From positions 1 through 64,000 of the IMG/VR virus record IMGVR_UViG_3300046009_005595: a DNA stretch of 64,000 nt; one strand, 5' to 3'. The notes beneath the pieces were generated by a model. It saw only the letters and a program-made list of their open reading frames with translations, did no database searches and was not told where the DNA came from. Shown here piece after piece: positions 1 through 14,086 of the stretch. This stretch comes from a virus. Each line of letters starts with the position of its first letter. The stretch's first letter is position 1. The position numbers and the translations under genes were made by a program.

Positions 1-121
1 TCCAATTAACAAGAGCATTATAAATCTCTTCTTTTGAAGCATTATTCCGACAAGCAAACTGATATTCACGTTTAGCGCGTTGCCCAGAACGACGATTACT
101 ATCTCTATTTGTGCGACTCAT
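1..121 (-). CDS. Small hypothetical protein, 3' end outside the window
   Basis: The first 40 residues are visible (start MSRTNRDSNRRSGQRAKREY). The N-terminus is strongly basic and is followed by a segment ending near NASKEEIYNALVNW, where the window stops. An AGAGG Shine-Dalgarno sequence sits about 6 bases before the ATG. It lies 11 bases downstream of the NadM/Nudix stop codon on the same strand, so it is probably co-transcribed with it. I do not recognise the family; the arginine-rich start would suit nucleic-acid binding, but that is only a guess. Confidence 0.6.
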   Translation of the reverse strand, partial: MSRTNRDSNRRSGQRAKREYQFACRNNASKEEIYNALVNW

Positions 122-132
122 ATTGTTCCTCT

Positions 133-1161
133 TTATGCTCCTACAAAATTGGAAATTATTTCGTAATGATCTTCAAAAACTTCACTAGAATCTAAACGTG
201 CAATAGGAATCCAAGAAGCCTTTTCTGCATCATCTTGACCTTTTACTTTAGGAAGTTCTCCATCAGGAAGTTGAATATAATATGCATGAGTAATAGTTCT
301 TCCTCTTGCTGATCTATTAATAGCATCAAATACTTTATTAGATTTAATACTACCTAGCAAAACTGGAATAGGAACCTTAATTCCAGTTTCTTCTTTTAAT
401 TCCCTAATAGCACAAGAAACCATACTTTTATCTTTATTTGCATCTAGAAATCCTCCAGGTAAAGCCCAAAGTCCTTTTCCTGGTTCTGATTTACGTTTAA
501 TCATAAGAACATGACCAGATTGAACTACTATTGTATCAGTTGTAACAAATACAGGAGGATAAGGTAAGCATTCATATTGTTTCTTATAAGTTTTAATAAA
601 TTCTCTTTCTTTTATGATTTGATTGTATTCCTCTTCAGTCTTGAAATGTTCTAGGAACTTAAAGATTGAACTAGGAACTACTCCTTTAATGAAATTCATA
701 TTAGCATCTTTACGGAAATAAAGATCTCTAATATCCGTAGAATGAAGGGATTCAATTAGATCAACATGAACTCGTTCCCATTGAGGAAACATACTAAGAT
801 AAAAAGTGCTTTCATCTTTATCATGACCAATAATACCAATTTTTGGATTACTTTTTGTTATATAACCATCAACAATTTGTTGAACTTTGATTGCCCAAGC
901 TTGATCATTATAAATTGAATCGGAGATATAATCAATACAAACATTTTTTCTTATATTATTTTCTGTACAAACCATATCAACCATAACAATCCTATCATGT
1001 TCAGTAAAAGGATTTTTATAAGTTCTTGGCTGAAAAGCTGATCCAACAATCAAAACTACTTTTTCAGCAATTTCAGAGGCTTTTTTAATAATTTCTAAGT
1101 GGGCATTGTGAACGGGTTGGAATCGTCCAATAAAGACGATGATATCGTATTTTTTATTCAT
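133..1161 (-). CDS. nadM: Bifunctional NMN adenylyltransferase / Nudix hydrolase
   Basis: A 342-residue two-domain enzyme of NAD metabolism. The N-terminal nucleotidyltransferase has the GRFQPVHNAH motif (H18, H21), which in this family joins NMN and ATP to give NAD. The C-terminal Nudix domain, of ADP-ribose pyrophosphatase type, has the box around residues 235-260 ending RELKEETGI. The same fusion is known in KVP40 and other T4-like phages, where it is thought to salvage NAD. I chose the ATG at 1161 because AGGAG lies 8 bases upstream; an in-frame ATG nine codons earlier has no such site. The Nudix box looks two residues longer than usual and its first Glu is replaced, so the second activity may be altered. 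A sigma70-like promoter lies upstream, beyond the pmoC terminator. Confidence 0.9.
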   Translation of the reverse strand: MNKKYDIIVFIGRFQPVHNAHLEIIKKASEIAEKVVLIVGSAFQPRTYKNPFTEHDRIVMVDMVCTENNIRKNVCIDYISDSIYNDQAWAIKVQQIVDGYITKSNPKIGIIGHDKDESTFYLSMFPQWERVHVDLIESLHSTDIRDLYFRKDANMNFIKGVVPSSIFKFLEHFKTEEEYNQIIKEREFIKTYKKQYECLPYPPVFVTTDTIVVQSGHVLMIKRKSEPGKGLWALPGGFLDANKDKSMVSCAIRELKEETGIKVPIPVLLGSIKSNKVFDAINRSARGRTITHAYYIQLPDGELPKVKGQDDAEKASWIPIARLDSSEVFEDHYEIISNFVGA

Positions 1162-1217
1162 AACATAACTCCTATGTTTTATTGACATAAGAAGGTCTAT
1201 CCTTCTTACTTGTATTT

Positions 1218-1246
1218 AGTATACATCATTTTTTACCAAAAGTAAA
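1218..1246 (-). promoter_or_regulatory. Sigma70-like promoter of the NadM/Nudix gene
   Basis: On the minus strand, TTTACT (1246-1241) and TATACT (1223-1218) are separated by 17 bases. The -10 box is one base from consensus and the -35 box matches 4 of 6. It lies about 55 bases upstream of the chosen start and just after the pmoC terminator, so nadM can be transcribed independently of pmoC. The -10 hexamer is the same as in the promoters at 7667-7672 and 13254-13259. Confidence 0.55.
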
Positions 1247-1251
1247 GCAAT

Positions 1252-1276
1252 AAAAAAGGGGACCGAAGCCCCCTTT
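1252..1276 (-). terminator. Rho-independent terminator of pmoC
   Basis: Read on the minus strand, a GGGGGC stem, a TTCG tetraloop and a GTCCCC stem are followed by a run of six T. The TTCG loop and T-run are classic for an intrinsic terminator. It begins about 20 bases after the pmoC stop codon. Confidence 0.85.
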
Positions 1277-1277
1277 C

Positions 1278-1293
1278 GTTACTTTAAAGTAAC
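1278..1293. repeat. Perfect 16-bp palindrome between pmoC stop and its terminator
   Basis: GTTACTTTAAAGTAAC is its own reverse complement. It lies three bases beyond the pmoC stop codon and just before the terminator. It could be a protein-binding site or a small 3' hairpin on the pmoC mRNA. Nothing in the sequence decides between these. Confidence 0.6.
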
Positions 1294-1296
1294 TTT

Positions 1297-2076
1297 TTAC
1301 TTAGCTACCAATCCTTTGTCTACAGACTCAACAATTTGATCTCCAATCAGACCAGCAAAAGATGAGAACACCTGTAGCAATACACCAGCAATAGCCAAAG
1401 CAAGCCAACCAAAGAACACGAACCCATAGTGCAAAGGGGCAACAAAAAGTTCCTCCATGAACCAGAAGGTATGACCCCATTCATTTAGACCTACGTTTGG
1501 TAGAATCATAAATGGACCTACAACAGTTACTAGATAAGGAAGACTTAGACCTTCAGCAAAATAAGGAAGTCTTGTCTTAGCATATAGGAATGCAGCAAAT
1601 CCAGTGATGATGTAGATTGGGTAAGTCAAGTAAAATTCAATAATATGACTTGGTGTAAAGTCAGTATCACGAACAATAGTTTGATGCCAAGTTCCGTCTT
1701 GTTCGGTGAAATAAGAGGCTCCCCAATAAATAGCATTTGCATAAGCAAATAACCAGACTAAGTGAGTCATATTACGACGAAGTTCTTCCCTTGGAGTAAT
1801 TGCAGCAAGGTTACGATCCCTTGATTTCCAAATATAACCCCAAAGAATAGAAGCCGTAGAAACTTCTAAAACAATTTCAGTATATAGGAAATTCATCCAG
1901 TAAGTTTCAAACTCTGGTGCAAATGAATCTAGTCCAGCAGACCAACCATATACACCTTCATACCAACGTACCCATATGTAAAATACAGTATAGATACCGA
2001 ATGCAAATGTCAACCAAGACTTATTGAGTAGTGGTGCATCTGCAACAATTTTAACATCTTTAGCTAAAGTAGCCAT
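1297..2076 (-). CDS. pmoC: Particulate methane monooxygenase subunit C (PmoC), phage-encoded
   Basis: A 259-residue multi-spanning membrane protein, full length for PmoC, with about six hydrophobic segments (roughly 20-36, 62-80, 104-120, 145-166, 178-196, 211-232). It is the membrane subunit that helps bind the metal centre oxidising methane to methanol. The family's metal ligands are all present with the expected spacing: D127, H131 and H144 (equivalent to the Asp/His/His site), and N198, H202 and H216 (equivalent to the Asn/His/His CuD site). Motifs RWYEGVYGWSAGLDSFAPEF, FTEQDGTWH and LPNVGLNEWGHTFWFMEEL are typical of gammaproteobacterial PmoC rather than AmoC. No pmoA or pmoB is nearby, so the product must join host subunits. 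By eye the gene is less AT-rich than its neighbours, fitting acquisition from a host. AGAGGT precedes the ATG. Function in the virus is inferred. Confidence 0.95.
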   Translation of the reverse strand: MATLAKDVKIVADAPLLNKSWLTFAFGIYTVFYIWVRWYEGVYGWSAGLDSFAPEFETYWMNFLYTEIVLEVSTASILWGYIWKSRDRNLAAITPREELRRNMTHLVWLFAYANAIYWGASYFTEQDGTWHQTIVRDTDFTPSHIIEFYLTYPIYIITGFAAFLYAKTRLPYFAEGLSLPYLVTVVGPFMILPNVGLNEWGHTFWFMEELFVAPLHYGFVFFGWLALAIAGVLLQVFSSFAGLIGDQIVESVDKGLVAK

Positions 2077-2148
2077 ATCATTACCTCTTGTGTTTTATAA
2101 ACAAAGTCCTTTTCTACGAAAGAGTCCATTCAATTCATTTCACAACTA

Positions 2149-2179
2149 TATTTATACCACAAAAAAATGTTCTTGTCAA
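2149..2179 (-). promoter_or_regulatory. Hybrid sigma70 / T4-late promoter of pmoC
   Basis: On the minus strand, TTGACA (2179-2174, perfect -35), a 17-base spacer and TATAAA (2156-2151) form a near-consensus sigma70 promoter. The same -10 region extends to TATAAATA (2156-2149), the T4 late promoter box read by gp55-type sigma. The pmoC ATG is 73 bases downstream. The overlap suggests transcription by host holoenzyme early and by the phage late machinery later. Confidence 0.75.
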
Positions 2180-2190
2180 CTATTTTTTTA

Positions 2191-2198
2191 TATAAATA
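2191..2198 (+). promoter_or_regulatory. T4-type late promoter of the capsid-targeted protein operon
   Basis: TATAAATA lies 26 bases upstream of the ATG at 2224, with no -35 box at suitable spacing. It diverges from the pmoC promoter across a gap of about 35 bases. TTGGAGATAAA supplies the ribosome binding site. It should drive the overlapping genes from 2224 to 5424. Confidence 0.75.
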
Positions 2199-2223
2199 TT
2201 AAAAAACTATTGTTGGAGATAAA

Positions 2224-2793
2224 ATGTTAACTTTTAAAGAATTTTTAGATGAAACTCAAGAACATACCAGTGCAGACACATCATTAAATCAAGTTTCTGC
2301 TGGGTTAAAATATGCAGTTTCTAAAGGATTAATCAAACCAAATAGTACAAATGTAGATCATGGTGGTGGAAGATATGATGCTGGAAAATCTCATGTAGAA
2401 AATTCAGTAGAAGGGTCTGAGCTTCATGTTCATGATCCTTTTAATAGATCAGAAGAACATAATAAAGAAGTTCATAAAAAAGCTAAAGGGAACTCTGACT
2501 ATGTTGGAATGCATAATGTATTAAATGTAATAAAAGAACCAGAACATAGAATTGAAGCTATGAAAGCTGCAAAATTTTTCATGAAACCAAAATCTGGTAT
2601 AGTACATTTTACAGTATATGAAGGAGATAAAAAAGGTAATGGAAGAATAACTAAAGCCGATAAAGGAAGAGGAAGTTCTTGGCAAGAACATAGACCAACA
2701 TCTTCTTATATTGAAGAAGTTAAAAAAGTTTTCCCTGAAGATAGTCATCATATAGAAGTTAAAGGACAAAATATTATAGTGAGACAAAAATGA
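2224..2793 (+). CDS. Capsid-targeted protein with methyltransferase-like fold
   Basis: 189 residues. Residues 1-10 (MLTFKEFLDE) match the capsid targeting sequence of T4 internal head proteins, ending in the Phe-Leu-x-Glu that resembles a gp21 prohead-protease site. The remainder looks like a class I SAM-dependent methyltransferase: a Gly-rich loop DHGGGRYD (45-52), an acidic turn DPFNR (71-75), NVLNVI (98-103, motif IV-like), then strands ending VYEGD (131-135). First gene of a late operon; its stop overlaps the next start (ATGA). Likely role: packaged in the head and injected. The methyltransferase assignment is by motif order only, and no substrate can be named. Confidence 0.65.
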   Translation: MLTFKEFLDETQEHTSADTSLNQVSAGLKYAVSKGLIKPNSTNVDHGGGRYDAGKSHVENSVEGSELHVHDPFNRSEEHNKEVHKKAKGNSDYVGMHNVLNVIKEPEHRIEAMKAAKFFMKPKSGIVHFTVYEGDKKGNGRITKADKGRGSSWQEHRPTSSYIEEVKKVFPEDSHHIEVKGQNIIVRQK

Positions 2794-3290
2794 AATCTTT
2801 TAAAGAATTTATATATGAAGAAAGAAAAATAGGTAAAGTTATTGGTGGAGAACATTATATTCATAGAGATTATGAAAATTTAATATCAGATCAAGAAGGA
2901 TTAGAAAAAGCAAAATCTAAATTAAATTCAGAACATAGAAATAGATATAATGTAGTAAAACATAATAAGAAAGAAGGAACATTTTCATTTATACATTCTC
3001 CTGATTTCGATGAATCTGATGAACCTATTTCTGGAGAGTCACATAAAGTTAAACCTGATGGATCAATAACTATAACTAAACAGAAAAAAGACCCCCAAAT
3101 TTGGCATCATAAATGGCAATGGGTTGGTGATGACTATAAAGGATTTGATGTAGAAAAATCAAAACAAAGATCTAAAGATTGGGGAAAAGTTACCGATAAA
3201 ATTAAACAAGAACGTCCAGAAGAAAAAGTTATGAATAAAATTGGAACTAAAAGTTATTGGGAAAAAAATGTTGTTCCTTATATAAAATAA
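2790..3290 (+). CDS. Capsid-targeted protein of unknown function
   Basis: 166 residues starting MKSFKEFIYEE, again a capsid targeting sequence with an Ile-x-Glu cleavage-like site at residue 10. The rest is hydrophilic and charged, with GKVIGGEHYIHRDYENLI near residues 15-32 and a Trp/Lys-rich stretch (IWHHKWQWVG) near 108. No catalytic family is recognisable. The ATGA overlap with the methyltransferase-like gene implies translational coupling and perhaps a joint function. It ends in TAATG, shared with the cupin gene. Confidence 0.6.
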   Translation: MKSFKEFIYEERKIGKVIGGEHYIHRDYENLISDQEGLEKAKSKLNSEHRNRYNVVKHNKKEGTFSFIHSPDFDESDEPISGESHKVKPDGSITITKQKKDPQIWHHKWQWVGDDYKGFDVEKSKQRSKDWGKVTDKIKQERPEEKVMNKIGTKSYWEKNVVPYIK

Positions 3291-3631
3291 TGAATAATCT
3301 TTTTAAAAAACAAAAAATAGATATAGAAAACGAAGAAAGTTTTTCTTTATTTTTATCAAAATTAAAAACAATATATCCAAATAATGATATATTTAATTCT
3401 ATTGAACCAATAACTATTAATACACATACTCATGATGATTTTGAAACTAGATTATTTTTATCTGGAGAAGCAGAATTTATTATAAATAATATAAAAATAA
3501 TATGTAATAGAGGGGATTATATTGAGATATATTCAAATACTCCTCATTCTTTTAACTATTATGGTGGGGAAGAATTAAAAGTTTTAAGATTTTTTTCAAA
3601 TAACACTCAATGGCAAGCAAATTTTAAATAA
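3290..3631 (+). CDS. Cupin protein, acireductone-dioxygenase-like
   Basis: 113 residues from the ATG in the TAATG overlap. The cupin metal-ligand set is intact: H46, H48 and E52 in THTHDDFETR, and H86 in NTPHSF, followed by LKVLRFFSNNTQW. This arrangement resembles acireductone dioxygenase of the methionine salvage pathway, but the protein is much shorter (the family is about 180 residues), so the exact reaction is uncertain. Unlike its neighbours it has no capsid targeting sequence, so it is probably not packaged. It sits inside the capsid-targeted operon. Confidence 0.6.
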   Translation: MNNLFKKQKIDIENEESFSLFLSKLKTIYPNNDIFNSIEPITINTHTHDDFETRLFLSGEAEFIINNIKIICNRGDYIEIYSNTPHSFNYYGGEELKVLRFFSNNTQWQANFK

Positions 3632-3642
3632 GAGAAAAGAAA

Positions 3643-4068
3643 ATGAAAACATTCACAAAATTTATGTCTGAGATAAAAGAACCAACAGGGGAATTAAAAA
3701 AATCTTGTTGGAAAGGATATACTGCAATAGGATTAAAAAAGAAAAACGGAAAGATGGTTCCTAATTGTGTTCCAGAAGAAGTTGATTTAGATGAAACTGC
3801 CGCATGGCAAAGAAAAGAAGGAAAAAATCCTGAAGGTGGTCTTAATAAAAAAGGTGTAGAATCTTATCGTAGAGAGAATCCAGGTTCTAACTTACAAACT
3901 GCTGTAACTACTCCTCCATCTAAATTAAAAAAAGGAAGTAAAGCAGCAAAGAGAAGATTATCATTTTGTAAAAGAATGAGGGGTATGAAGAAGAAATTAA
4001 CTTCTGCTGAAACTGCGAGAGATCCAAATTCTAGAATTAATAAATCTTTGAGAAAATGGAATTGCTGA
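3643..4068 (+). CDS. Capsid-targeted basic protein, phage-conserved family
   Basis: 141 residues starting MKTFTKFMSEIKE (capsid targeting sequence). A first motif, KSCWKGYTAIGLKKKNGKMV (residues about 20-40), is followed by a second conserved block from AAWQRKEGKNPEGGL through SFCKRMRGMKKKL to SRINKSLRKWNC at the end. I recognise this block as recurring in marine phage genomes without known function. The protein is very basic with four cysteines, fitting a DNA-associated packaged protein. It overlaps the next gene as TGATG. Confidence 0.6.
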   Translation: MKTFTKFMSEIKEPTGELKKSCWKGYTAIGLKKKNGKMVPNCVPEEVDLDETAAWQRKEGKNPEGGLNKKGVESYRRENPGSNLQTAVTTPPSKLKKGSKAAKRRLSFCKRMRGMKKKLTSAETARDPNSRINKSLRKWNC

Positions 4069-4496
4069 TGAAAACATTTAAAGAGTATATATCAGAAATT
4101 TATTGGGTAAAACCAAAACCGAACAAAGAACAAAGTGAGATTGGATTTCAAGTTGGTAGTAGTTCACATGCTCATGTAAACAAACAACTGAAACGTTTAT
4201 CTGATCCAAAAAAGTTTAAATCTTCGTTATCCAAAGCAAAAGTTATAAATTATAATCAAAACAAAATTAAAAATGTGGATAATACTGATGCTGCGGATAA
4301 AGGAGCTTTTAAACAATTGAATAAACAGAAACAAAAAAGAGTTTCAAACATATTTAAAAAATCAAGATCGGTAGAAACTCCAATTATTCTAAAGCATAGA
4401 GAAACTGGTCATGAACATTTGTTAGCTGGAAATACTAGAGCCACATATGGAATTCAAAAAAGAAAAAAAATAAAAGCATCTGTAATAGAGTATTAA
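4068..4496 (+). CDS. Capsid-targeted protein with ParB-like domain
   Basis: 142 residues, start MKTFKEYISEI (capsid targeting sequence). I chose the ATG in the TGATG overlap because it begins exactly at the targeting motif; the upstream in-frame ATG only adds four residues from the previous gene's frame. The C-terminal third, PIILKHRETGHEHLLAGNTR with the LLAGNTRATYG motif around residues 117-128, resembles the ParB/Srx nucleotide-binding loop (GxxR) of ParB-like nucleases. Lys-rich overall. Likely packaged; activity not established. Confidence 0.6.
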   Translation: MKTFKEYISEIYWVKPKPNKEQSEIGFQVGSSSHAHVNKQLKRLSDPKKFKSSLSKAKVINYNQNKIKNVDNTDAADKGAFKQLNKQKQKRVSNIFKKSRSVETPIILKHRETGHEHLLAGNTRATYGIQKRKKIKASVIEY

Positions 4497-4497
4497 A

Positions 4498-5424
4498 ATG
4501 AAATCATTTAAAGAATTTTATAAAAATAATTATTATATAATAGATGAAGAAATTCATAATGAACTTCAATCTATATTAGATGTGCCAAGTGAAAGTGAAG
4601 AAGAAAGAACTAAAAGATTAGAAAAAAATCCTTGGACTGCATCTAAATTTGATCCTGCTGTTACTAAACTAAATAATTTTACTAAAAAAGCTAGAGAATT
4701 ATTATCTAGGGGAGAAGATACTGGATTAGAAAATAGTAAACCTAAAAAAGGTTCTTCTAGAGCAGTTTTCTTCCCAAAAGATCCTAAAAATATTACTTTA
4801 GATGGAATTCCTACTAAAGCTAAAACAGTTGTAAAAATAGCATTTCCTGGTAGATTAGATAAATTCAGAAGAAATGATGAAAGATTATTAGGTGAACATC
4901 AAAACTCAACAGAGTCAGATCATGTTATATCTAACAATTTTGGTATGTTATCAGAAAATCATGATGGATCATATTCAACAAATCCAGATGGAGTATTAGC
5001 ACCTGTTTTTAACAGACATCCTGACCATCATCATTTAGAAATGGGTCATGTATCTCCAATGAAAAAATCTGATTTTCAAAAATTAACAGTATCAGAATCT
5101 CATCCAAAAGGACTTAAATTTGATGATATGTATAATGCATTAAATAAAGAACATAAAGATGCTAATGGCTTAGATGGATTTACTCCACGCTCTCATACTG
5201 ATAGTTTGCATGAAAAAACTATGCAACATCCATTCGTTAATAAAGTTGCTGATATGATGTTTACTAATGGATTTCATCCAGGAGATATTTCAATTAGAAA
5301 TATGGGAATTTGGACTCATCCACATACAGGTAAACAATATCCAGTAATGTCAGATTATGGATTTACAGATGATGTTGCCAATCATTATTGGCAAAGAAGA
5401 CAAAGAGCATCAAGAAATTATTAA
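4498..5424 (+). CDS. Capsid-targeted protein-kinase-like protein
   Basis: 308 residues. It begins MKSFKEFYKN, a divergent capsid targeting sequence whose Glu occurs later (IIDEE, 14-18). The body has kinase-like landmarks in order: a Gly/Ser turn GSSRAVFF (85-92), a strand with Lys VVKIAFPG (K113), a catalytic-loop-like HPGDISIRNMG (D263, N268) and a DFG-like SDYGF (D286). This matches the order of protein kinase or aminoglycoside phosphotransferase folds with short lobes. Last gene of the operon; a hairpin follows 6 bases after the stop. If active it would phosphorylate a host target straight after injection. Fold assignment is by motif only. Confidence 0.6.
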   Translation: MKSFKEFYKNNYYIIDEEIHNELQSILDVPSESEEERTKRLEKNPWTASKFDPAVTKLNNFTKKARELLSRGEDTGLENSKPKKGSSRAVFFPKDPKNITLDGIPTKAKTVVKIAFPGRLDKFRRNDERLLGEHQNSTESDHVISNNFGMLSENHDGSYSTNPDGVLAPVFNRHPDHHHLEMGHVSPMKKSDFQKLTVSESHPKGLKFDDMYNALNKEHKDANGLDGFTPRSHTDSLHEKTMQHPFVNKVADMMFTNGFHPGDISIRNMGIWTHPHTGKQYPVMSDYGFTDDVANHYWQRRQRASRNY

Positions 5425-5430
5425 AAATAC

Positions 5431-5460
5431 TATAAAGGGAGTGAAAAAGCTCCCTTTATA
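5431..5460. terminator. Hairpin terminator between convergent genes
   Basis: A perfect 11-bp stem (TATAAAGGGAG with CTCCCTTTATA) has an 8-base loop. The base of the stem is AT-rich and supplies A/T runs for both directions. It lies between the kinase-like gene (plus) and two small minus-strand genes, so it probably ends both transcripts. Confidence 0.75.
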
Positions 5461-5477
5461 ATATAATCTTATACTAT

Positions 5478-5627
5478 TTAAGCAACTTTTCTAGTAGATA
5501 AATCATCAAATTTTTCATAATTCTCTACGAATGATTTCTTATTTTTCTTATAAGAATCTTTTTGTGAAATTTTTACTTTTGGTTTTTTGAATTTATCAGA
5601 AGGTTCTTTACGATATGTTTTAGCCAT
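5478..5627 (-). CDS. Small basic protein, 49 aa, unknown
   Basis: Starts MAKTYRKEPSDKFKKPKVKI and ends DDLSTRKVA. It is very Lys-rich in the first 35 residues, with an acidic patch near the end. It begins 2 bases after the stop of the upstream small gene on the same strand, so the two form a unit behind one late promoter. No family recognised; small basic late proteins are often virion or DNA-associated, but that is inference. Confidence 0.6.
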   Translation of the reverse strand: MAKTYRKEPSDKFKKPKVKISQKDSYKKNKKSFVENYEKFDDLSTRKVA

Positions 5628-5629
5628 AC

Positions 5630-5788
5630 TCAGTTATCTTTATTATCAGTTTTAATTACATTAATTTTATCAAGATCTTGATTAGATCCTTGTCTTGCTG
5701 GTTTTCTATTGAAAAATTCAGCAGTTTTTTTAATTTCCTCTTCATAACGTTTTTTATCATTTTCATCAGGTATATATTCGTTAGCCAT
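5630..5788 (-). CDS. Small charged protein, 52 aa, unknown
   Basis: Starts MANEYIPDENDKKRYEEEIK and ends NVIKTDNKDN; mostly charged and probably helical. AAGGATG lies just upstream of the ATG and a TATAAATA late box lies 22 bases upstream. It is the first of two tandem small genes. No family recognised. Confidence 0.65.
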   Translation of the reverse strand: MANEYIPDENDKKRYEEEIKKTAEFFNRKPARQGSNQDLDKINVIKTDNKDN

Positions 5789-5809
5789 TTATGTCATCCT
5801 TAAAATAAT

Positions 5810-5817
5810 TATTTATA
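5810..5817 (-). promoter_or_regulatory. T4-type late promoter for two small minus-strand genes
   Basis: TATAAATA on the minus strand, 22 bases upstream of the ATG at 5788. The spacing is similar to the other late boxes in this window. Confidence 0.7.
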
Positions 5818-5874
5818 ATTTGTTTTATTTTCACCATATAAGTATCTATATATTTTATTTCAAAAGAGGTGTTT

Positions 5875-6066
5875 ATGAAAAATATTTATGAAATTGTTTT
5901 AACAAATTTCAATGAACCAAATGATGTTCAATCAAAGACTATATTTTTTGTATCTGATAATTTAAATGATATTTTATCTTATATTAGATCAAATAAAGAT
6001 TTAACTAATTTTGTTGTATCTAATATAGTTATGATTAATCAAGGATCAGAAGTAATTTATATTTAA
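5875..6066 (+). CDS. Small hypothetical protein, 63 aa
   Basis: MKNIYEIVLTNFNEPNDVQS and onward, alternating hydrophobic and polar residues like a small alpha/beta protein. The ATG at 5875 is preferred over the GTG at 5869 because AAGAGGTG lies just ahead of it. A late-box variant TATAAGTA is at 5837-5844. The 149 bases after it, up to 6216, hold no gene I can see. Confidence 0.55.
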   Translation: MKNIYEIVLTNFNEPNDVQSKTIFFVSDNLNDILSYIRSNKDLTNFVVSNIVMINQGSEVIYI

Positions 6067-6215
6067 TTATCATCCGACTACAGAGTAATAGTAACACAGG
6101 ATAGAAAAAAAGTCAAGAACTTTTTTATTAGATATAGACTTAGATTATAAGAATTATTTTAAACTTATTAAAATCTGTATAAAGATAAATACTATTATTT
6201 TATAAAGGAATTTAG

Positions 6216-7613
6216 ATGAAAATTCTAGTAATAGATTCGGAAGGATTTTGTTTGGATTTTGCATGGAGATGTAAATTAAACAAACATGATGTTAAATATC
6301 ACATAGCAATGAATCCAAAAAAAGGAATAATATCAACATATGGAGATGGTATTGTTTCTAAAGTAAATGAATATAAACCATATATGGATTGGGCTGATTT
6401 AATTGTTCTTTGTGATAATATAATTTTAATGGAAGAAATGAAGAATTATAGAAACAAAGGATATCCAATATTTGGTATTGATGATGATATTTCTAAATGT
6501 GAATTAGATAGAAATTATGGGCAAGATTTATTTAAAAAATATGGTATAGAAACTATGCCCTATGAAGGTCCATTTAATGATTATGATTCTGGAATAAACT
6601 TTGTTAAAAAGAATCTAGATAAACGTTGGGTTTCAAAACCTTGTGGAGAGGAAACAGATAAATCATTATCATATGTTTCTAAATCTGCTGAAGATATGAT
6701 ATTCATGCTACAAAAATGGAAAGAAAAAGGAAAGAAACAATCATTTATTTTACAAGAATTTAAACCTGGTATTGAAATGGCTGTTGGTGGTTTTTATGGA
6801 CCAGGAGGATTTTCTAAATACTACTTAGAGAATTTTGAATTTAAAAAATATTTAAATGGAGATTTAGGAGTAAATACAGGAGAACAAGGAACTGTAATAG
6901 GATATGTTCAAAAATCTAAACTAGCTGAAGAATTACTAACTCCTTTGATTCCTTATTTAAAATCAAAAAATTATTGTGGTTATATTGATGTTGCTTGTAT
7001 TATTGACGAAAAAACAGGAACTCCTTATCCATTAGAATTTACTTCAAGATTTGGATATCCATTATGGCAAATACAACAAGCATTACATATAGGAGATCCT
7101 GCAGAATGGATGTTAGATCTTATTAAAGGAAAGGATACTTTAAAAGTTAAGGATAATAAAGTATGTATAGGTGTTGTTCTTTCTAATGGATCTTACCCTA
7201 AAAAAGCAGATGATTATTACGAAGAACAAGATTATCCTATTAAGTTAGATAAGGTTAATATGAATGATATTCACCCTTCAGAAGTTAAGATAGGAAAGAC
7301 TTTAAAAATTTCAGATGGTAAAATAAAGGAAGTTGATGGTTGGGTTACTGCTGGAAATTATATTCTAACTGCTACTGCATGTGGAGATACTGTTTCAGAA
7401 GCTAAAGAAAAAGTTTATAAAATTTTAAAAAATATTGAAGTTGGAAATTCTCCACAATATAGAACTGATATTGGAGATAGACTTAATAAACAACTTCCAA
7501 CAATTCAAAAATTTGGATATGCTAAGATGTTTAAGTTTGATGAAAAATCTAAAGGGTCTGAGGTTGCTGAACAATACGCACAAGCTATATCTAGAAAGAT
7601 AAAATTTTATTGA
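6216..7613 (+). CDS. ATP-grasp ligase, PurD-like (phosphoribosylamine-glycine ligase family)
   Basis: 465 residues, close to PurD length (about 430). The N-terminal Rossmann-like segment MKILVIDSEGFCLDF is followed by an ATP-grasp core: a KPCGEETDKS strand (about 140-150), ILQEFKPGIEMAVGGFY (about 180-195) and CGYIDVACIID...PLEFTSRFGYP (about 255-285), where Glu and Asn/Ser positions bind Mg-ATP. The C-terminal ATACGDTVSEAKEKVYKIL matches the PurD C-terminal domain. PurD makes glycinamide ribonucleotide in purine synthesis, a sensible help for phage DNA synthesis. An AAGGA site lies 6 bases before the ATG, with a possible GATAAATA box at 6184-6191. The true substrate could differ, since phage homologues are divergent. 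Confidence 0.7.
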   Translation: MKILVIDSEGFCLDFAWRCKLNKHDVKYHIAMNPKKGIISTYGDGIVSKVNEYKPYMDWADLIVLCDNIILMEEMKNYRNKGYPIFGIDDDISKCELDRNYGQDLFKKYGIETMPYEGPFNDYDSGINFVKKNLDKRWVSKPCGEETDKSLSYVSKSAEDMIFMLQKWKEKGKKQSFILQEFKPGIEMAVGGFYGPGGFSKYYLENFEFKKYLNGDLGVNTGEQGTVIGYVQKSKLAEELLTPLIPYLKSKNYCGYIDVACIIDEKTGTPYPLEFTSRFGYPLWQIQQALHIGDPAEWMLDLIKGKDTLKVKDNKVCIGVVLSNGSYPKKADDYYEEQDYPIKLDKVNMNDIHPSEVKIGKTLKISDGKIKEVDGWVTAGNYILTATACGDTVSEAKEKVYKILKNIEVGNSPQYRTDIGDRLNKQLPTIQKFGYAKMFKFDEKSKGSEVAEQYAQAISRKIKFY

Positions 7614-7643
7614 CATTTATTTTTAAATTTTAGATTAAAAGTG

Positions 7644-7672
7644 TTGACTTGATGTAGAAAAACTCGTATACT
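7644..7672 (+). promoter_or_regulatory. Sigma70 promoter of the 7705 gene
   Basis: TTGACT (7644-7649), a 17-base spacer and TATACT (7667-7672): one mismatch in each box. Transcription would start near 7679, which rules out the upstream in-frame ATG at 7675 and supports the GTG start at 7705. Confidence 0.75.
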
Positions 7673-7704
7673 ATATGCTCTTACAATCGACAAGTGGAGT
7701 TTTT

Positions 7705-8331
7705 GTGAATATATTTTATCTTGACCACAATTATAAAGTTTGCGCTCAAATGCACAACGACAAACACTGCATCAAGATGATTCTTGAGTATTGTCAACTT
7801 TTATCTACTGCTCATCGTGTTCTTGATGGTGTTGATTCAGTAGAAAAACGTGCAGTTGCTGGATCATTTCCTGTTCGTTGGCGTAATGTAAAAAAATGGA
7901 AACTTTCTGATGATCGTGACAATATTTTATATGCAGCTACTCACATCAATCATCCTAGTGCTATTTGGTGTCGTGCTTCAAAAGCTAACTACGATTGGCT
8001 ATACTCATTGCTAGTAGAACTATGTAGTGAGTATACCTACCGTTATGGTAAAGTTCATAAGTGTGAGCAAATTGGTTTGGTTAAGAAACTGTCTGAGTAT
8101 CCAAAAAATATCAAGATAGGTCTATTCACGCAACCTACTCCAGCTATGCCTGAAGAATATGTTATCAAAAATGATTCCATAAAGTCTTATAGAAATTACT
8201 ATATAAACAGCAAACAACATATCGCACAATGGTCAGGAAAGATAAATAGTAGAGAAGTACCAAATTGGTATTCTCAAGGAATTCTGGATTTATTAACAGA
8301 ACAGGCTCAAAAATTAAATATGGGGTATTAA
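7705..8331 (+). CDS. Conserved phage protein, possibly pyrimidine-dimer-glycosylase-related
   Basis: 208 residues, GTG start with GGAG five bases upstream and a sigma70 promoter just before it. The opening MNIFYLDHNYKVCAQMHNDK followed by HCIKMILEYCQLLSTAHRVL recurs in T4-like cyanophages. The C-terminal part has PAMPEEYVIKNDSIKSYRNYY and a Trp-Tyr near the end, which has led some homologues to be linked to pyrimidine dimer DNA glycosylases. The His/Cys-rich N-terminus could bind metal. By eye this gene is less AT-rich than its neighbours. Function is not firmly known. Confidence 0.6.
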   Translation: MNIFYLDHNYKVCAQMHNDKHCIKMILEYCQLLSTAHRVLDGVDSVEKRAVAGSFPVRWRNVKKWKLSDDRDNILYAATHINHPSAIWCRASKANYDWLYSLLVELCSEYTYRYGKVHKCEQIGLVKKLSEYPKNIKIGLFTQPTPAMPEEYVIKNDSIKSYRNYYINSKQHIAQWSGKINSREVPNWYSQGILDLLTEQAQKLNMGY

Positions 8332-8574
8332 ATGCCAATTTATGATATAAAGAATAAAGACACTGGAGAAATAGAAGAAAAATTTATGACTATTTCTGAA
8401 TATGAACAATATAAAATTGATCATCCCAATGAAGAACAAGTTTTCACAACAATGAATTTTGCAGATTCTGTTTCTTTAGGAATTAAAAAACCACCAAGAG
8501 AATTTCAAGAGGGAGTTATCGAAAGAATTAAAAGAAATACCCCAGGTCATAATATTCAAAGCAGATGGGACTAA
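8332..8574 (+). CDS. Small FmdB-like phage protein, 80 aa
   Basis: MPIYDIKNKDTGEIEEKFMT resembles the N-terminus of FmdB-type putative regulators and of a small protein common in T4-like cyanophages, but the usual zinc-ribbon cysteines are missing. The middle, FADSVSLGIKKPPREFQEGV, and the end, RIKRNTPGHNIQSRW, are also typical of the phage family. It starts directly after the previous stop codon with GGGG as ribosome binding site, so it is co-transcribed. Function unknown. Confidence 0.6.
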   Translation: MPIYDIKNKDTGEIEEKFMTISEYEQYKIDHPNEEQVFTTMNFADSVSLGIKKPPREFQEGVIERIKRNTPGHNIQSRWD

Positions 8575-8623
8575 ATACAATTTTGTTATGTATATTAATG
8601 TTTTTTTGACTTCTATTAACTAC

Positions 8624-8646
8624 AAAGGGCAGATATTGCCCTTTTT
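8624..8646 (+). terminator. Rho-independent terminator after the 7705-8574 unit
   Basis: AAAGGGCA and TGCCCTTT pair across a GATAT loop and are followed by a T-run. It stands only about 9 bases before the phoH ribosome binding site. phoH must therefore depend on read-through or on a promoter I could not identify. Confidence 0.8.
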
Positions 8647-8663
8647 TCTTTTCAAGGATGTTT

Positions 8664-9446
8664 ATGTCAAAAATAAGAAAACTAAACAGCAAATTCTTAA
8701 AATCTTCAGAGATAGATAGAGAGATGGATAATGTAACTTCGATAAAAGGCAGAAAAAGAAAACCACAAAATTCTAATACAGGACAATTAGTATTAAAGGA
8801 AATTCAACCATTAACAGATAATCAAAAATTAGCTTTTGATTCATATTATTCTGGTAGAGAATTAATTCTAAGTGGATTTCCTGGAACTGGAAAAACTTTT
8901 TTAGCTATGTATCTTGCATTAAATGATTTATTCTATTCAGAAAATGATTATGAAAGAATTATTATATGTAGAAGTTTAGTTAAATCTAGGGAAATAGGAC
9001 ATTTACCTGGTTCTGTTGATGAAAAAGCTCAACCTTTTGAAGCACCTTATATTTCTATATGTAATGAATTGTTTAGTAGAGGTGATGCATATTCAATATT
9101 ATCTAAAAAGGATATAATTCAGTTTGAAAATACTTCATTTTTAAGAGGATTATCTTTTAATAATGCATTAATTATTATTGATGAAGCTCAAAATTTCAAT
9201 TTCCATGAAATTGATACTGTTTGTGGTAGAATAGGTAAAAATTGTAGAATAATTTTTTCTGGAGATATACATCAATCTGATTTAATCAATACTAGAGAAT
9301 GTAGTGGGTTTGCTAAATTTTTAAAAATCGCAAACATTATGGATAGATTTAATGTTGTAGAGTTTGAGGTAACTGATATAGTAAGAAGTCAATTTGTATA
9401 CGACTATATTGTTGCTAAACATAGAGTAGAACAAGGATATGATTAA
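8664..9446 (+). CDS. phoH: PhoH-family P-loop ATPase
   Basis: 260 residues from the ATG at 8664; AAGGA lies 5 bases upstream, which favours it over the ATG at 8658. Walker A GFPGTGKT is at about residues 72-79 and Walker B IIIDEAQN at about 169-176, with a later GDIHQSD sensor-like motif. This is the PhoH/RNA-helicase-like ATPase core, widespread in marine and T4-like phages as an auxiliary gene of uncertain role (phosphate stress or RNA metabolism). The N-terminal 45 residues are basic. It overlaps the phosphoesterase gene by 8 bases. Confidence 0.88.
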   Translation: MSKIRKLNSKFLKSSEIDREMDNVTSIKGRKRKPQNSNTGQLVLKEIQPLTDNQKLAFDSYYSGRELILSGFPGTGKTFLAMYLALNDLFYSENDYERIIICRSLVKSREIGHLPGSVDEKAQPFEAPYISICNELFSRGDAYSILSKKDIIQFENTSFLRGLSFNNALIIIDEAQNFNFHEIDTVCGRIGKNCRIIFSGDIHQSDLINTRECSGFAKFLKIANIMDRFNVVEFEVTDIVRSQFVYDYIVAKHRVEQGYD

Positions 9447-10236
9447 TAAAAGAAAATATAGAAGTATTTTCATTTCAGACATTCATCTTGGAACTAGAGA
9501 TTGCAAAGCAGAATTGCTTTGCAATTTCTTAAAATATAATTCAGCTAATACAATATATCTTATTGGAGATATTATTGATGGTTGGAAAATGCAACAAAAT
9601 AAATGGAAATGGAAAAAATCTCATACAAATGTAATTCGTCAAATTTTGAATCATTCAAAAAAAGGTTCAAAAATAGTGTATATTACAGGGAATCATGACG
9701 AGTTTTTGAGACCTTTATTAATATATGATTTTTCTTTAGGTAAAATAGAAATAGTTAATAGAATTGATCATATAGGAGTTAATGGTAAAAGATATTTAGT
9801 AATACACGGAGATTTATTTGATGGTATTTCTAAATTAGCACCTTGGTTAGGATTTTTAGGAGATAAATCATATGATTTATTATTATATCTAAATTCTAAA
9901 TATAATTGGTTCAGACATAAATTTGGATTTGGATATTGGTCATTTAGTAAATATCTAAAACATAAAGTTAAAGGTGCTGTTGATTTTATTTTTGACTATG
10001 AAAAAAATTTAGTTGACTATTGCAGAAGAAAATTCTATGATGGTGTTATCTGTGGACATATTCACCATGCAGAGATAAAAGAAATCGAAGGCATAGTCTA
10101 TATGAATGATGGAGATTGGGTAGAAAGTTGTACCGCATTAGTTGAACATTTTGATGGTACTTTTGAAATAGTAAATTGGAACGAAATTAAAGAAACTAAA
10201 GAGGATAGATGTGAAGAAAATATTGATAATAACTGA
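9439..10236 (+). CDS. Calcineurin-like metallophosphoesterase, LpxH-like
   Basis: 265 residues with the full metallophosphoesterase motif series: SDIHLG near 12-17, GDIIDGW, GNHDEF, and GHIHH toward the end, the metal-binding Asp/His/Asn set. The fill-in sequence (KWKWKKSHTNVIRQIL, VIHGDLFD, YDLLLYLNSKYNW) resembles UDP-2,3-diacylglucosamine diphosphatase (LpxH) relatives of lipid A or glycolipid pathways. It overlaps the following GT4 glycosyltransferase by 26 bases, a gene pairing also seen in bacterial genomes. The pair could remodel the host envelope during infection. The exact substrate is unknown. Confidence 0.8.
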   Translation: MINKRKYRSIFISDIHLGTRDCKAELLCNFLKYNSANTIYLIGDIIDGWKMQQNKWKWKKSHTNVIRQILNHSKKGSKIVYITGNHDEFLRPLLIYDFSLGKIEIVNRIDHIGVNGKRYLVIHGDLFDGISKLAPWLGFLGDKSYDLLLYLNSKYNWFRHKFGFGYWSFSKYLKHKVKGAVDFIFDYEKNLVDYCRRKFYDGVICGHIHHAEIKEIEGIVYMNDGDWVESCTALVEHFDGTFEIVNWNEIKETKEDRCEENIDNN

Positions 10237-11218
10237 CACAACCCTTAAACAAACTAATGGTGTTGTTAGAACTCTAAACAAAACAATGGAAATTCTTTCT
10301 GAAAAAAATGAAATCTCTTTCATCAATCCAGAAAGATTTAAAACTATTTCTCTACCATTCTATAAAGAAATTGACATTTCATTGAATATATGGAAAATTG
10401 GTAAAATGATTGAGGATATTAGTCCTGATTTTATTCATATTGCTACAGAAGGTCCAGTTGGATTAGCAGGAAAGTTATATTGTGATAGGAAAACCTATAA
10501 TTATACAACATCTTATCATTCTATGTTTCCTGAGTTTATTAAAAACATTTTTGGGATTTCTGAAAATTTAACATATCCATATTTCAAATGGTTCCATTCA
10601 AAGTCTAAAAATATATTAGTTCCTACTAATATAGTAAAAAATCTATTAATATCTAAAGGATTTGACAATCTTGTTGTTTGGAAAAGAGGAGTCGATAGAA
10701 AAGTATTTAATTCTTCTCATAGGAATAGGCCATTTGATTCACATTTAAAATTTATTTTATGTGTTAGTAGAGTTTCTAAGGAAAAAGGTTTAGATGATTT
10801 TTGTAATATTCCTGTACCAGATGGGTATTTAAAAGTTTTAGTTGGTGATGGTCCTTATTTAAAAGAACTTATGACTAAGTATCATAGCGAAGTATCATTT
10901 GTTGGAAAATTAACAGGAAAGAATCTTTCCACCATCTATGCTAATGCAGATGTTTTCGTTTTTCCTTCTAAAAATGATACCTTCGGGTTAACACAATTAG
11001 AAGCAATTGCTTCAGGTACTCCTGTATTAGCATATAGAGGTACTGTTTCTGATGAGATAATTAGAGAAGGTAGAAGTGGATTTCTAGTAGAAGAATTCGG
11101 AGTTGGTGAATTAGATGCTTGTTTAACATTATCCAGAAAATATGTAGAGGATGAGTCTTATAATTGGACTTGGAAAAAGTGTACTGCAATTTTTTACGAA
11201 AGTTTAGTTGAAAAATAA
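10211..11218 (+). CDS. GT4-family glycosyltransferase
   Basis: 335 residues; GTG start with GAGG 6 bases upstream, inside the end of the phosphoesterase gene. The N-terminal domain opens KKILIITDTTLKQTNGVVRT as in GT4 mannosyl/glucosyl transferases that act on lipids. The C-terminal donor-binding domain has CVSRVSKEKGLDDF, LVGDGPYLKEL, FPSKNDTFGLTQLEAIASGT (the E-x7-E region) and PVLAYRGTVSDEII. A GT-B fold using a nucleotide sugar is likely; the acceptor is probably lipid or glycan rather than phage DNA, because T4 DNA glucosyltransferases look different. Translationally coupled to the LpxH-like gene. Confidence 0.82.
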   Translation: MKKILIITDTTLKQTNGVVRTLNKTMEILSEKNEISFINPERFKTISLPFYKEIDISLNIWKIGKMIEDISPDFIHIATEGPVGLAGKLYCDRKTYNYTTSYHSMFPEFIKNIFGISENLTYPYFKWFHSKSKNILVPTNIVKNLLISKGFDNLVVWKRGVDRKVFNSSHRNRPFDSHLKFILCVSRVSKEKGLDDFCNIPVPDGYLKVLVGDGPYLKELMTKYHSEVSFVGKLTGKNLSTIYANADVFVFPSKNDTFGLTQLEAIASGTPVLAYRGTVSDEIIREGRSGFLVEEFGVGELDACLTLSRKYVEDESYNWTWKKCTAIFYESLVEK

Positions 11219-11221
11219 ATT

Positions 11222-11881
11222 ATGTTTTTATATTGCCCTCCAAAAGAAATATATGATTTAAAAACTGAAATCATTAATAATAAACGTCATTACGTTACTC
11301 CTAATGGAAAGTATGCGTCAATAACCACAATATTAGGATCTTTTAATAAACAAAGGCTTTTTGATTGGAGAAAAAAAGTTGGGGAGGAAGAAGCTACTAG
11401 AATTTCCACTAGAGCTTCTTCTAGAGGAACCAAAACACATTCTTTATGTGAACAATATTTGAATAATAAAGCTATTGATTATTCTGATTTTGCTAATACA
11501 ATAGCATTAGATTGTTTTATTTCAATTAAACCATTTTTAGATAATATTAATAATATACATTATTTAGAATGTGCTTTATATTCTGATAGGTTAAAAGTTG
11601 CTGGAAGATGTGATGCTATTGCTGAATATGATGGAGTATTATCAATAATAGACTATAAAACATCAACTAGATTAAAGACTGAAGAAGATATACAAGATTA
11701 TTTTCTACAAGCAACATTTTATGCTATGGCTTATTATGAATTAACTGGGATAAAAATAAATCAAATAATTATAATAATAGCTGTTGAAGATGATAACCCT
11801 CAAATTTTTATAAAAGATATAAATAGTTATATTAAAATTTTAATAGGTAAAGTTAAATGTTATCATTCAAGAAATTCATAA
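11222..11881 (+). CDS. PD-(D/E)XK exonuclease (RecB/Cas4/MGME1-like)
   Basis: 219 residues. TPNGKYASITTILG near the N-terminus, a helix RASSRGTKTHSLCEQYL containing the conserved His, then GRCDAIAEYDG (about 129-139) and IIDYKTS (about 142-148), which are the D and D-x-K strands of the nuclease, and QATFYAMAYYELTG (motif QxxxY). This is the RecB-like exonuclease family found in many T4-like cyanophages, presumably for host DNA degradation or recombination. A late promoter and the next gene start lie within its 3' end. Confidence 0.82.
   Translation: MFLYCPPKEIYDLKTEIINNKRHYVTPNGKYASITTILGSFNKQRLFDWRKKVGEEEATRISTRASSRGTKTHSLCEQYLNNKAIDYSDFANTIALDCFISIKPFLDNINNIHYLECALYSDRLKVAGRCDAIAEYDGVLSIIDYKTSTRLKTEEDIQDYFLQATFYAMAYYELTGIKINQIIIIIAVEDDNPQIFIKDINSYIKILIGKVKCYHSRNS
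11818..11825 (+). promoter_or_regulatory. T4-type late promoter inside the exonuclease gene
   Basis: TATAAATA lies 32 bases upstream of the ATG at 11857, within the last codons of the exonuclease gene. It lets the second group of capsid-targeted proteins be made late, independently of the early/middle genes upstream. Confidence 0.65.
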
Positions 11882-12507
11882 AAGAATCAATTGTTCATCC
11901 TAAATTAGGAGAACATGGAGAATCTGTTTATATTGAAAATCCATCAAATCCATCTCCAATAGAACATTGGCATGATTCAACCAAACACGCAACAGTAGTT
12001 CCAAAAGGAGAACTCCCACAAGAATTAAATGGAGTTAAATTTGAATCTTGGAAAAATTCTCCAAAAAATAAAGAAGAATGGAATTCTGTCGAAGGACAAG
12101 GTGATTTTGAAGAACCTCCTTTAATTAATACAAATAATAAAAGAATTGCAACTGGAGCAATAATACATGAAAAAGATGGTAGAGTGTGGACATTATCCCC
12201 AACAAATGGATTTGGTGGATATGATACAACTATTGGACCTAAAGGTAAATTAGATTCAGGGTTGAATCATAGAGCAAATGCTATAAAAGAAGCACACGAG
12301 GAAACAGGTCTAAAAATAGAATTATTAGGACATGCATATGATTCTAATAGATCTACTAGTTTGACTAGGTATTATCATGCTAAAAGAGTAGGAGGAACCC
12401 CATCAGAAATGGGATGGGAATCTCAGGCAGTTCATTTAGTTCCAAAAGAAAAATTAAAAGATCATTTAAACTCACCACTAGATAAAGAGATAGTAGAAAA
12501 ACTATGA
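11857..12507 (+). CDS. Capsid-targeted Nudix hydrolase
   Basis: 216 residues. N-terminus MLSFKKFIKES is a capsid targeting sequence with the Ile-x-Glu site. The Nudix domain occupies about residues 95-210; the box runs from G130 through KEAHEETGL (144-152), but the first conserved Glu is Leu136 (G-x5-L instead of G-x5-E), while the core E-x-x-E-E metal ligands remain. An active pyrophosphohydrolase is therefore likely. Packaged Nudix enzymes could decap RNA or clear nucleotide alarmones at injection, which is inference. It starts inside the exonuclease gene with its own late promoter and overlaps the next gene (ATGA). Confidence 0.75.
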   Translation: MLSFKKFIKESIVHPKLGEHGESVYIENPSNPSPIEHWHDSTKHATVVPKGELPQELNGVKFESWKNSPKNKEEWNSVEGQGDFEEPPLINTNNKRIATGAIIHEKDGRVWTLSPTNGFGGYDTTIGPKGKLDSGLNHRANAIKEAHEETGLKIELLGHAYDSNRSTSLTRYYHAKRVGGTPSEMGWESQAVHLVPKEKLKDHLNSPLDKEIVEKL

Positions 12508-13241
12508 AAACATTCAAAGAATTTATATCAGAAGAATTTATAAAGACATCTGGAGCATTAGGTTCAAATCCAGGAGGGATATATCAACATAATGAAACAG
12601 GTAAAAAACATTATATTAAATTTCCAGAACATTCAGATCAAGCAAAATCAGAAGTTTTATCTGGAAAACTTCAGGATTTGATGGGTATTAAAACATTAAA
12701 TCCAGAAATAGCTAATATAGAAGGAAAAGAAGGTGTTTCCACTAAATGGAAAGAAGGATTGACTCCAATAAAATTAAATGATGTTAAAGATATGACTCCA
12801 GATCAACATCATACTATAGGGAAGATATTTGCACATTCAGTTTTAACAAAAAATTGGGATGGTGTTGGAACAGGTCTTGATTATGGTCAAGGTAATATAT
12901 CATCGGATAGAAAAGGAGTTCTTCATGGAATAGATCCTGGTGGTTCTTTCGAGTTTAGAGCAAGAGGTGGACATAAACCTTACACTTCTGATATATCAGA
13001 GATCAGATCTTTACGAGATCCTAATGTTAATCATGAATCTGCTCATGTATTTAATACTGCGTTTTCGATGACTCCAGAAGCTTTGCATCACGGAATAGAA
13101 GCTGTACGAAATATTGATCAAGGAAAAGTTTATGATGCTTTTAAAAATTCTGGACTTCATAATTGGGAAGATCTACACAGAACTTTTCATGAGAGAAGAA
13201 ATAATTTCCTAGATCATTTCCAATCAACAGTTGACAAATAG
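12504..13241 (+). CDS. Capsid-targeted HipA/PI-kinase-like protein
   Basis: 245 residues, start MKTFKEFISEEF (capsid targeting sequence with Ile-Ser-Glu). Kinase-like landmarks follow in order: GSNPGGIYQ loop (20-28), strand YIKFP with K39, helix Glu E50, NWDGVG (D119), GQGNIS (N131) and GIDPGGSF (D144). The N-W-D...N...I-D-P-G order resembles HipA and phosphatidylinositol-kinase-like folds (catalytic Asp, Asn, metal Asp). It is coupled to the capsid-targeted Nudix gene by an ATGA overlap, so both would be delivered together. Kinase activity is unproven; it could be a pseudo-kinase or another ATP-binding effector. Confidence 0.65.
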   Translation: MKTFKEFISEEFIKTSGALGSNPGGIYQHNETGKKHYIKFPEHSDQAKSEVLSGKLQDLMGIKTLNPEIANIEGKEGVSTKWKEGLTPIKLNDVKDMTPDQHHTIGKIFAHSVLTKNWDGVGTGLDYGQGNISSDRKGVLHGIDPGGSFEFRARGGHKPYTSDISEIRSLRDPNVNHESAHVFNTAFSMTPEALHHGIEAVRNIDQGKVYDAFKNSGLHNWEDLHRTFHERRNNFLDHFQSTVDK

Positions 13242-13259
13242 ATCATAGGTTGATATACT
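13231..13259 (+). promoter_or_regulatory. Consensus sigma70 promoter
   Basis: TTGACA (13231-13236, perfect), a 17-base spacer and TATACT (13254-13259, one mismatch). It overlaps the last codons of the kinase-like gene and lies 24 bases upstream of the ATG at 13284. The strongest-looking host-type promoter in the window along with that of pmoC. Confidence 0.85.
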
Positions 13260-13283
13260 GTATTTTTGTTATGGAGAATGTGT

Positions 13284-13586
13284 ATGTGGTTAGTTTTGAA
13301 TAAAGGATTTCTTTCTATTGTTAACAAGGAAGGAAGTTATGTGGTTAGATCTAGAGTCAAAGAACATTTGTCTTTTTATTTTCCAAATTTTGAAATTGAA
13401 GAAGGAGGTGGAACAGACTATCAATATAGAATCAGATTGACGAAGAGTCAGTTGGATAATTTTTTTAGTCTTCTGCCTAATGAAATAGTATATTCTAATT
13501 TTAAAGATTCTATTGAAGATAATGCAATCCATAATTTTGCTAGTCGAATATGGACTTTAGGGTGGCAATTATTTTCGTATAAATAA
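13284..13586 (+). CDS. Hypothetical protein, 100 aa, early-expressed
   Basis: MWLVLNKGFLSIVNKEGSYV and onward. The ATG at 13284 is chosen because GGAG lies 7 bases upstream and a sigma70 promoter starts transcription near 13266; the in-frame TTG at 13266 has neither. The protein looks like a small alpha/beta domain (VRSRVKEHLSFYFPNFEIEE, YRIRLTKSQLDNFFSLLP). No family recognised. The strong host-type promoter suggests a role early in infection. Confidence 0.65.
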   Translation: MWLVLNKGFLSIVNKEGSYVVRSRVKEHLSFYFPNFEIEEGGGTDYQYRIRLTKSQLDNFFSLLPNEIVYSNFKDSIEDNAIHNFASRIWTLGWQLFSYK

Positions 13587-13590
13587 TATA

Positions 13591-13611
13591 TTGCCCCAAA
13601 AAATGGGGCAA
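13591..13611. terminator. GC-rich hairpin after the 13284 gene
   Basis: TTGCCCC pairs with GGGGCAA across a 7-base A-rich loop, just after the stop codon. There is no T-run after it, so it may act as an imperfect terminator or an mRNA-stabilising 3' hairpin. Confidence 0.5.
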
Positions 13612-13660
13612 TAACAAGATAACTTTAAAAGTAAAGTAATCTTAAATCATCAAATAGAAA

Positions 13661-13681: not shown

Positions 13682-13702
13682 CGTTATAGGAGAAAAAAGA
13701 AG

Positions 13703-14050: not shown

Positions 14051-14086
14051 GAGTTAAATAAACTATTTAAATTAGAGGTAATATTA

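Follow-up and report, generated by a model that had tools for sequence, protein, structure and literature searches.

The window analysed here, a stretch of viral DNA of 64,000 nucleotides, comprises bases 1–64000 of a 135,688-bp IMG/VR record (IMGVR_UViG_3300046009_005595). Close to its left end lies a complete, stand-alone pmoC, the gene for subunit C of the particulate methane monooxygenase. The features of the locus are the following:

133..1188, minus strand: NMN-adenylyltransferase-like/Nudix fusion, the neighbour downstream of pmoC, with a possible role in NAD metabolism
1252..1277, minus strand: intrinsic-terminator-like hairpin GGGGGC-UUCG-GUCCCC with a U run, after the pmoC stop codon
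1297..2076, minus strand: pmoC, 259 amino acids, one uninterrupted open reading frame from ATG to TAA
2083..2089, minus strand: ribosome-binding-site-like AAGAGGT, read from the sequence
2149–2156, minus strand: T4-type late promoter TATAAATA, 80 nt upstream of the pmoC start codon
2191..2198, plus strand: divergent TATAAATA, upstream of the open reading frame at 2224

The product matches the Pfam AmoC family (PF04896) with 406 bits against a cut-off of 26.7 (E 5.5e-122), covering positions 10–243 of the 245 in the profile, and aligns nearly end to end with the PmoC chains of the solved structures 7ev9 and 1yew (phmmer, E about 1e-147, about 491 bits). Among PDB chains, those of PmoC score up to 491 bits against the window protein and those of AmoC at most 248. 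The alignment with 1yew carries an offset of +29 and pairs D127, H131 and H144 with D156, H160 and H173, the ligands of the CuC site, and N198, H202 and H216 with N227, H231 and H245, those of the CuD site. All six are unchanged in 94 of 94 viral PmoC sequences. The preliminary description had called the gene full length and had named both ligand sets, and it was right on each count. The window protein shares its family and all six metal ligands with the bacterial PmoC of 7ev9 and 1yew, but it is encoded by a phage, in a record without pmoA or pmoB and behind a phage late promoter. PmoC is not known to act as an enzyme by itself. Neither the window record nor any of 13 related phage records gave a match to the PmoA or PmoB families; the same PmoA search recovers the host copies, which served as a positive control.

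PHROG matches in the record include terminase, portal, sheath, major capsid protein, DNA polymerase, clamp, clamp loader and the late sigma factor gp55, confirming the T4-type core proposed earlier. These core genes, the large terminase among them, sit outside the window, and the record, which has no end repeats, may be incomplete. It also contains a gene for HSP20. About 11 otherwise unlike open reading frames begin with an N-terminal MKTFKEFIxE-like motif (at 2224, 2790, 3643, 4056, 4498, 11857 and 12504 in the window, and at 84385, 126591, 127419 and 127686 of the record, outside it), several of them just past the pmoC promoter. The motif resembles the T4 capsid-targeting sequence of internal head proteins. 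Three clustered RCC1-like repeat proteins (GLWTWGxNxxGQLGDN repeats) occupy 46481–51213 of the window, flanked by giant repeat open reading frames at 41442–46481 and 57738–63092. Outside the window, the record (G000) has a free-standing GIY-YIG-looking open reading frame immediately after the major capsid gene (83462–84304) and a UvsX/RecA-like gene (103941–106127; L083/L084) split by an apparent intein (end VVTHN-T) that encloses a NUMOD3/HNH-like open reading frame.

Probable late expression and proposed role of the phage PmoC

The gp55 protein of T4 recognises late promoters of the type found upstream of pmoC, and the window phage encodes a gp55. The motif TATAAATA is common to about 60% of viral pmoC genes, being present within 250 nt upstream in 63 of 95, while about one third have no exact copy; among host pmoC genes the same interval holds it in 1 of 76. 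Its position is narrowly defined: 21 of 38 viral cluster representatives have it at −125 to −55, whereas dinucleotide shuffles give a mean of 0.3 (maximum 3) and the opposite strand gives 1. Many other copies in the record stand 25–60 nt before an open reading frame. There is no genome-wide enrichment (31 copies in the record versus 47 in shuffles), and the signal is one of position, not of abundance. A scan for sigma-70 promoters did no better than shuffles. The gene had been said to possess its own promoter and terminator, and both were found; with the divergent TATAAATA in addition, pmoC looks like its own transcription unit. In three active lake phages pmoC is transcribed with the structural genes, which was read as late expression (PMC7674155), and the late promoter and terminator-like hairpin of the window agree with this.

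We propose that a T4-type phage of a Methylococcaceae-like methanotroph would express pmoC late, from a gp55-type promoter, and that the phage PmoC most likely assembles in the membrane with the PmoA and PmoB of the host. The particulate methane monooxygenase, and hence the supply of energy and carbon, could in this way be kept working during virion production. The phage protein might instead not be a functional subunit of the enzyme, acting for example as a decoy that inhibits or remodels the host enzyme, or as a membrane-altering protein. Such a role would fit the carriage of pmoC alone, with pmoA and pmoB not found in the phage records searched; the question of why only pmoC is carried is discussed in PMC7674155, where the N and C termini are also reported to be more divergent than the core. 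The invariant metal ligands and the constraint along the whole chain are nevertheless what is expected of an active subunit, and we consider a non-subunit role improbable.

Group I introns in related pmoC genes

We surveyed 98 other viral pmoC contigs, locating interruptions by tblastn. In all of them pmoC is open over its full length unless the contig end cuts it, either directly or after removal of introns. Interrupted genes occur in ten contigs (L015, L016, L018, L030, L031, L034, L041, L050, L052 and L079), which together carry 14 introns, 11 of them distinct, at seven insertion sites. All 11 distinct introns exceed the gathering score of 50 bits of the Rfam group I intron model RF00028, with a range of 63.9–104.7 (L015, 93.9; L016, 90.6 and 86.6; L018, 104.7, 97.9, 96.3 and 93.9; L030, 87.8; L034, 82.9; L041, 63.9; L050, 69.2). 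At 249–258 nt they are too short to hold an endonuclease gene. The 5′ exon ends in U at every intron, with a P1-like pairing of 4–5 bp, U having been required when the sites were chosen, and 13 of the 14 introns end in the terminal G (omega-G). The exception, intron 1 of L018, ends in A and its 3′ site is therefore uncertain; the junctions of the multi-intron genes of L016 and L018 were placed by hand. RNAalifold predicts 60 pairs for the 11 distinct introns, 46 of them with compensatory changes.

A model built from the 11 distinct introns (R1) recovers the 14 pmoC introns in 1.2 Mb of viral loci together with one further intron in L018. It finds none in 80 host loci, and in 251 genomes it gives four hits (36–69 bits) at places that do not coincide with the pmoC matches listed there. 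Double hits in the MAGs L093–L097 and L089 were considered as introns and rejected, being tandem pmoC copies. The 135.7-kb window record has no match to RF00028 or R1, and no open reading frame like the six distinct endonucleases described below was found within 2.5 kb of its pmoC. The intron finding thus concerns the relatives; the window allele has neither intron nor adjacent endonuclease.

In the codon numbering of the window gene the introns are inserted at 44/45, 201/202, within 204, within 206, at 213/214, within 219 and at 223/224. Six of the seven sites fall within 24 codons that hold H202 and H216, which random placement achieves about 2 times in 10,000. Homing endonucleases prefer conserved sequence, and clustering in the conserved CuD-ligand stretch is what such a preference would lead one to expect. 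The most heavily interrupted gene is that of L018, in which four introns separate exons of 603, 13, 23, 30 and 111 nt. The 5′ 1.5 kb of this contig looks bacterial and may reflect an assembly chimera; the intron array, at 1540–2612, belongs to the phage part, and its exons, being shorter than the usual assembly k-mers, make it unlikely that different alleles were wrongly joined there. The further intron lies at L018:8677–8929; the first exon before it seems to be just 6 nt long (ATGGGT), and the intron is immediately preceded by a sub-threshold match to the freshwater-2 RNA (8592–8676). In exon 1 of both L016 and L018, GC3 is high in mid-gene (0.66–0.82) and the ends are AT-richer; the exon could be a recombination mosaic with a host-like core and phage-like ends or, in L018, an assembly chimera. 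The phage record L034 has a tmRNA match at 3833–4204 (permuted and alpha models) and a ClpX-like gene with an apparent intein at 6408–8735.

A free-standing homing-endonuclease-like open reading frame lies within about 140 nt of pmoC in 9 of the 10 intron contigs, almost always downstream and on the opposite strand, and in 5 of the 88 intron-less ones. The association gives a Fisher P of 1e-8 over contigs that are not independent; among representatives of clusters at 95.5% identity an endonuclease is present in 5 of 6 with introns versus 3 of 33 without (P 5e-4). Five of the six distinct endonuclease frames (L041, L050, L030, L016 and L018) have PHROG homing-endonuclease matches, the sixth (L015) resembles the L016 frame, and one reaches the Pfam GIY-YIG cut-off. 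A natural pair of near-identical phages, one with an occupied and one with an empty site, is provided by L041 and L019. They are 99.2% identical over 9.8 kb up to the exon–intron boundary, beyond which L041 contains the intron, a 3′ exon that shares only 88% identity with that of L019, and the endonuclease frame, before identity returns to 98.9%. This is the pattern predicted by homing with co-conversion of the downstream exon. About 1.1 kb past the intact gene of L016, beyond the endonuclease frame, lies a decayed second pmoC 3′ end (12398–12514), possibly the displaced original exon.

The endonucleases beside pmoC probably cut intron-less alleles in the conserved CuD-ligand stretch; repair of the break would then copy intron, 3′ exon and endonuclease together, and splicing would leave PmoC intact. 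Alternatively, the introns could be competent to splice and yet immobile, with the neighbouring endonucleases unrelated to them. Cleavage is a prediction, L034 has an intron and no adjacent endonuclease, and three intron-less pmoC genes (L033:1317–2114, L200:3783–4583 and L203:592–1392) stand beside an endonuclease akin to the L018 one (E about 1e-84); these three are possible intermediates that have the endonuclease without the intron. Immobility does not readily account for the association of endonucleases with introns in contigs and cluster representatives alike, for a single tract of intron, 3′ exon and endonuclease as the difference between L041 and L019, or for the presence of introns in two distant PmoC clades of the tree described below, and we regard it as unlikely.

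The interrupted genes might also be decaying pseudogenes. Four phages have been listed with a "fragmented" pmoC, without explanation (PMC7674155), and the unspliced frames in our contigs do end after 48–221 codons. In LR_6 the pmoC fragments are separated by a non-coding region with little transcription, and the C-terminal fragment is less transcribed than the N-terminal one (PMC7674155). Against decay, the inserts score as group I introns, their predicted excision gives a complete PmoC in ten of ten contigs with a terminal G in all but one intron, and the exons downstream of introns have a dN/dS of 0.02–0.07 versus intron-less relatives, like the upstream exons and with high synonymous divergence (L016 and L018 were too saturated against intron-less copies and were left out). 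Such values are not expected of untranslated 3′ exons. The non-coding, weakly transcribed region of LR_6 is likewise as expected of an excised intron, and a group I intron would explain the gap as that paper describes it. Taken together, decay is very unlikely, and equating our contigs with the published description suggests introns, and not breakage, as the cause in at least some of the viral pmoC genes called "fragmented". A tblastn search of PmoC against the phage GenBank collection gave no match. The preliminary description had named inactivating changes in related phages as evidence that would count against an intact gene; the literature's fragmented genes seemed to supply them, but in the interrupted genes of our contigs the frame is restored once the group I introns that split them are removed, and so they leave the reading of an intact gene standing.

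Descent and residence of the phage gene

A tree was built from 39 viral and 50 bacterial sequences, all of them PmoC. The window PmoC falls in a set with a support of 95 that consists of seven phage rows and one Methylococcus sp. MAG (L086), and is nested within the Methylococcaceae; this place in the tree and the PDB scores given above mark the gene as a methanotroph pmoC and not an amoC. The alpha-type phage PmoC form a separate clade. Identity to the L086 protein is 93% over 232 columns. The L086 contig is bacterial, since its pmoC runs on into pmoA and pmoB as a pmoCAB operon. The likeness to gammaproteobacterial methanotroph PmoC noted earlier is therefore upheld by phylogeny. This placement supports a Methylococcaceae-like methanotroph as the source from which the gene was transferred, and suggests a host of the same kind for the phage. 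The CRISPR check proposed earlier did not add to this, as a search with window positions 2200–22000 in 251 genomes of the host order gave no convincing spacer; its matches were either diverged homologous sequence or short hits close to chance level (E about 1e-3 to 1e-2).

Purifying selection, which had been thought likely, is borne out by a dN/dS (Nei–Gojobori) of 0.04–0.10 between the window gene and other phage copies, with 0.03–0.13 for other viral pairs. The nearest host gene, that of L086, shares 79% nucleotide identity with the window gene, and over most of its length the latter has a phage-like GC3 of about 0.2, so that pmoC has probably been carried by phages for some time. A very unlikely reading is that host DNA was misjoined to the phage contig by assembly or is transient passenger DNA: viral and host pmoC are alike and assemblies break there (PMC7674155), the window gene is 1.3 kb from the contig end and L018 may be a chimera, its 5′ part being host-like (high GC3, an upstream cytochrome-c-like open reading frame), but a second IMG/VR contig matches window 1–12076, pmoC and 12 kb of flanking phage sequence included, at 100% identity, and a third does so at about 99% with a few gaps, so that the gene is no one-off product of assembly, and the divergence from the nearest host gene, the phage-like GC3, the phage late promoter and terminator, and the many synonymous but few non-synonymous changes relative to other phage copies all speak against it.

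Known systems and wider meaning

That phages carry pmoC is already known from the pmoC-phages of freshwater lakes (Chen et al. 2020, PMC7674155), and the earlier remark that the idea is not new was correct. Like them, the window record has a stand-alone pmoC without pmoA or pmoB on a large T4-related myovirus genome, a methanotroph-derived PmoC and HSP20, which occurs in most published pmoC-phages (PMC7674155). Introns and promoters, in contrast, are absent from the main text of that paper, and the literature searched contained no account of pmoC introns. The new part is the predicted group I introns in the viral relatives, while the window pmoC itself is of an already known type.

Several group I introns in a single phage gene, as in the pmoC relatives, are also seen in Staphylococcus phage Twort, which has three introns in one gene. 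Two introns in the ribonucleotide reductase gene of this phage are cited in PMC3984707. The gene of L018 differs in being a metabolic gene with four introns and intervening exons of only 13, 23 and 30 nt. The closest parallel in mechanism is psbA of cyanophage S-PM2, where a group I intron and the free-standing endonuclease F-CphI take part in "collaborative homing" (PMC6083498). In both cases a group I intron sits in an auxiliary metabolic gene carried by a T4-type phage, with a free-standing homing endonuclease beside it; the gene and host are different here (pmoC, methanotrophs), the pmoC-linked endonucleases look GIY-YIG/SegE-type and that of psbA is Endo VII-type, and the pmoC relatives have several sites and up to four introns per gene.

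We conclude, with a probability of about 0.75, that pmoC is a host-derived auxiliary gene expressed late, whose product would serve the host enzyme, and that in relatives it is a target of group I intron homing. For this reading the sequences provide an intact and selected gene, its methanotroph origin, a late promoter, intron structures with restored frames, an endonuclease association and a pair of phages with occupied and empty site; that PmoC assembles into the host enzyme and is of benefit during infection, that the introns splice and that the endonucleases cut is inferred. It is very likely that self-splicing group I introns, spread by free-standing endonucleases beside the gene, target viral pmoC repeatedly, and that at least some "fragmented" copies are functional, intron-split genes.

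Gene callers will truncate or discard auxiliary genes split by small introns, and counts of intact viral pmoC are therefore probably too low. The late promoter puts pmoC in the virion-production phase of infection. The preservation of broken-looking copies through introns, together with strong selection, supports the idea that these phages keep a working methane-oxidation subunit.
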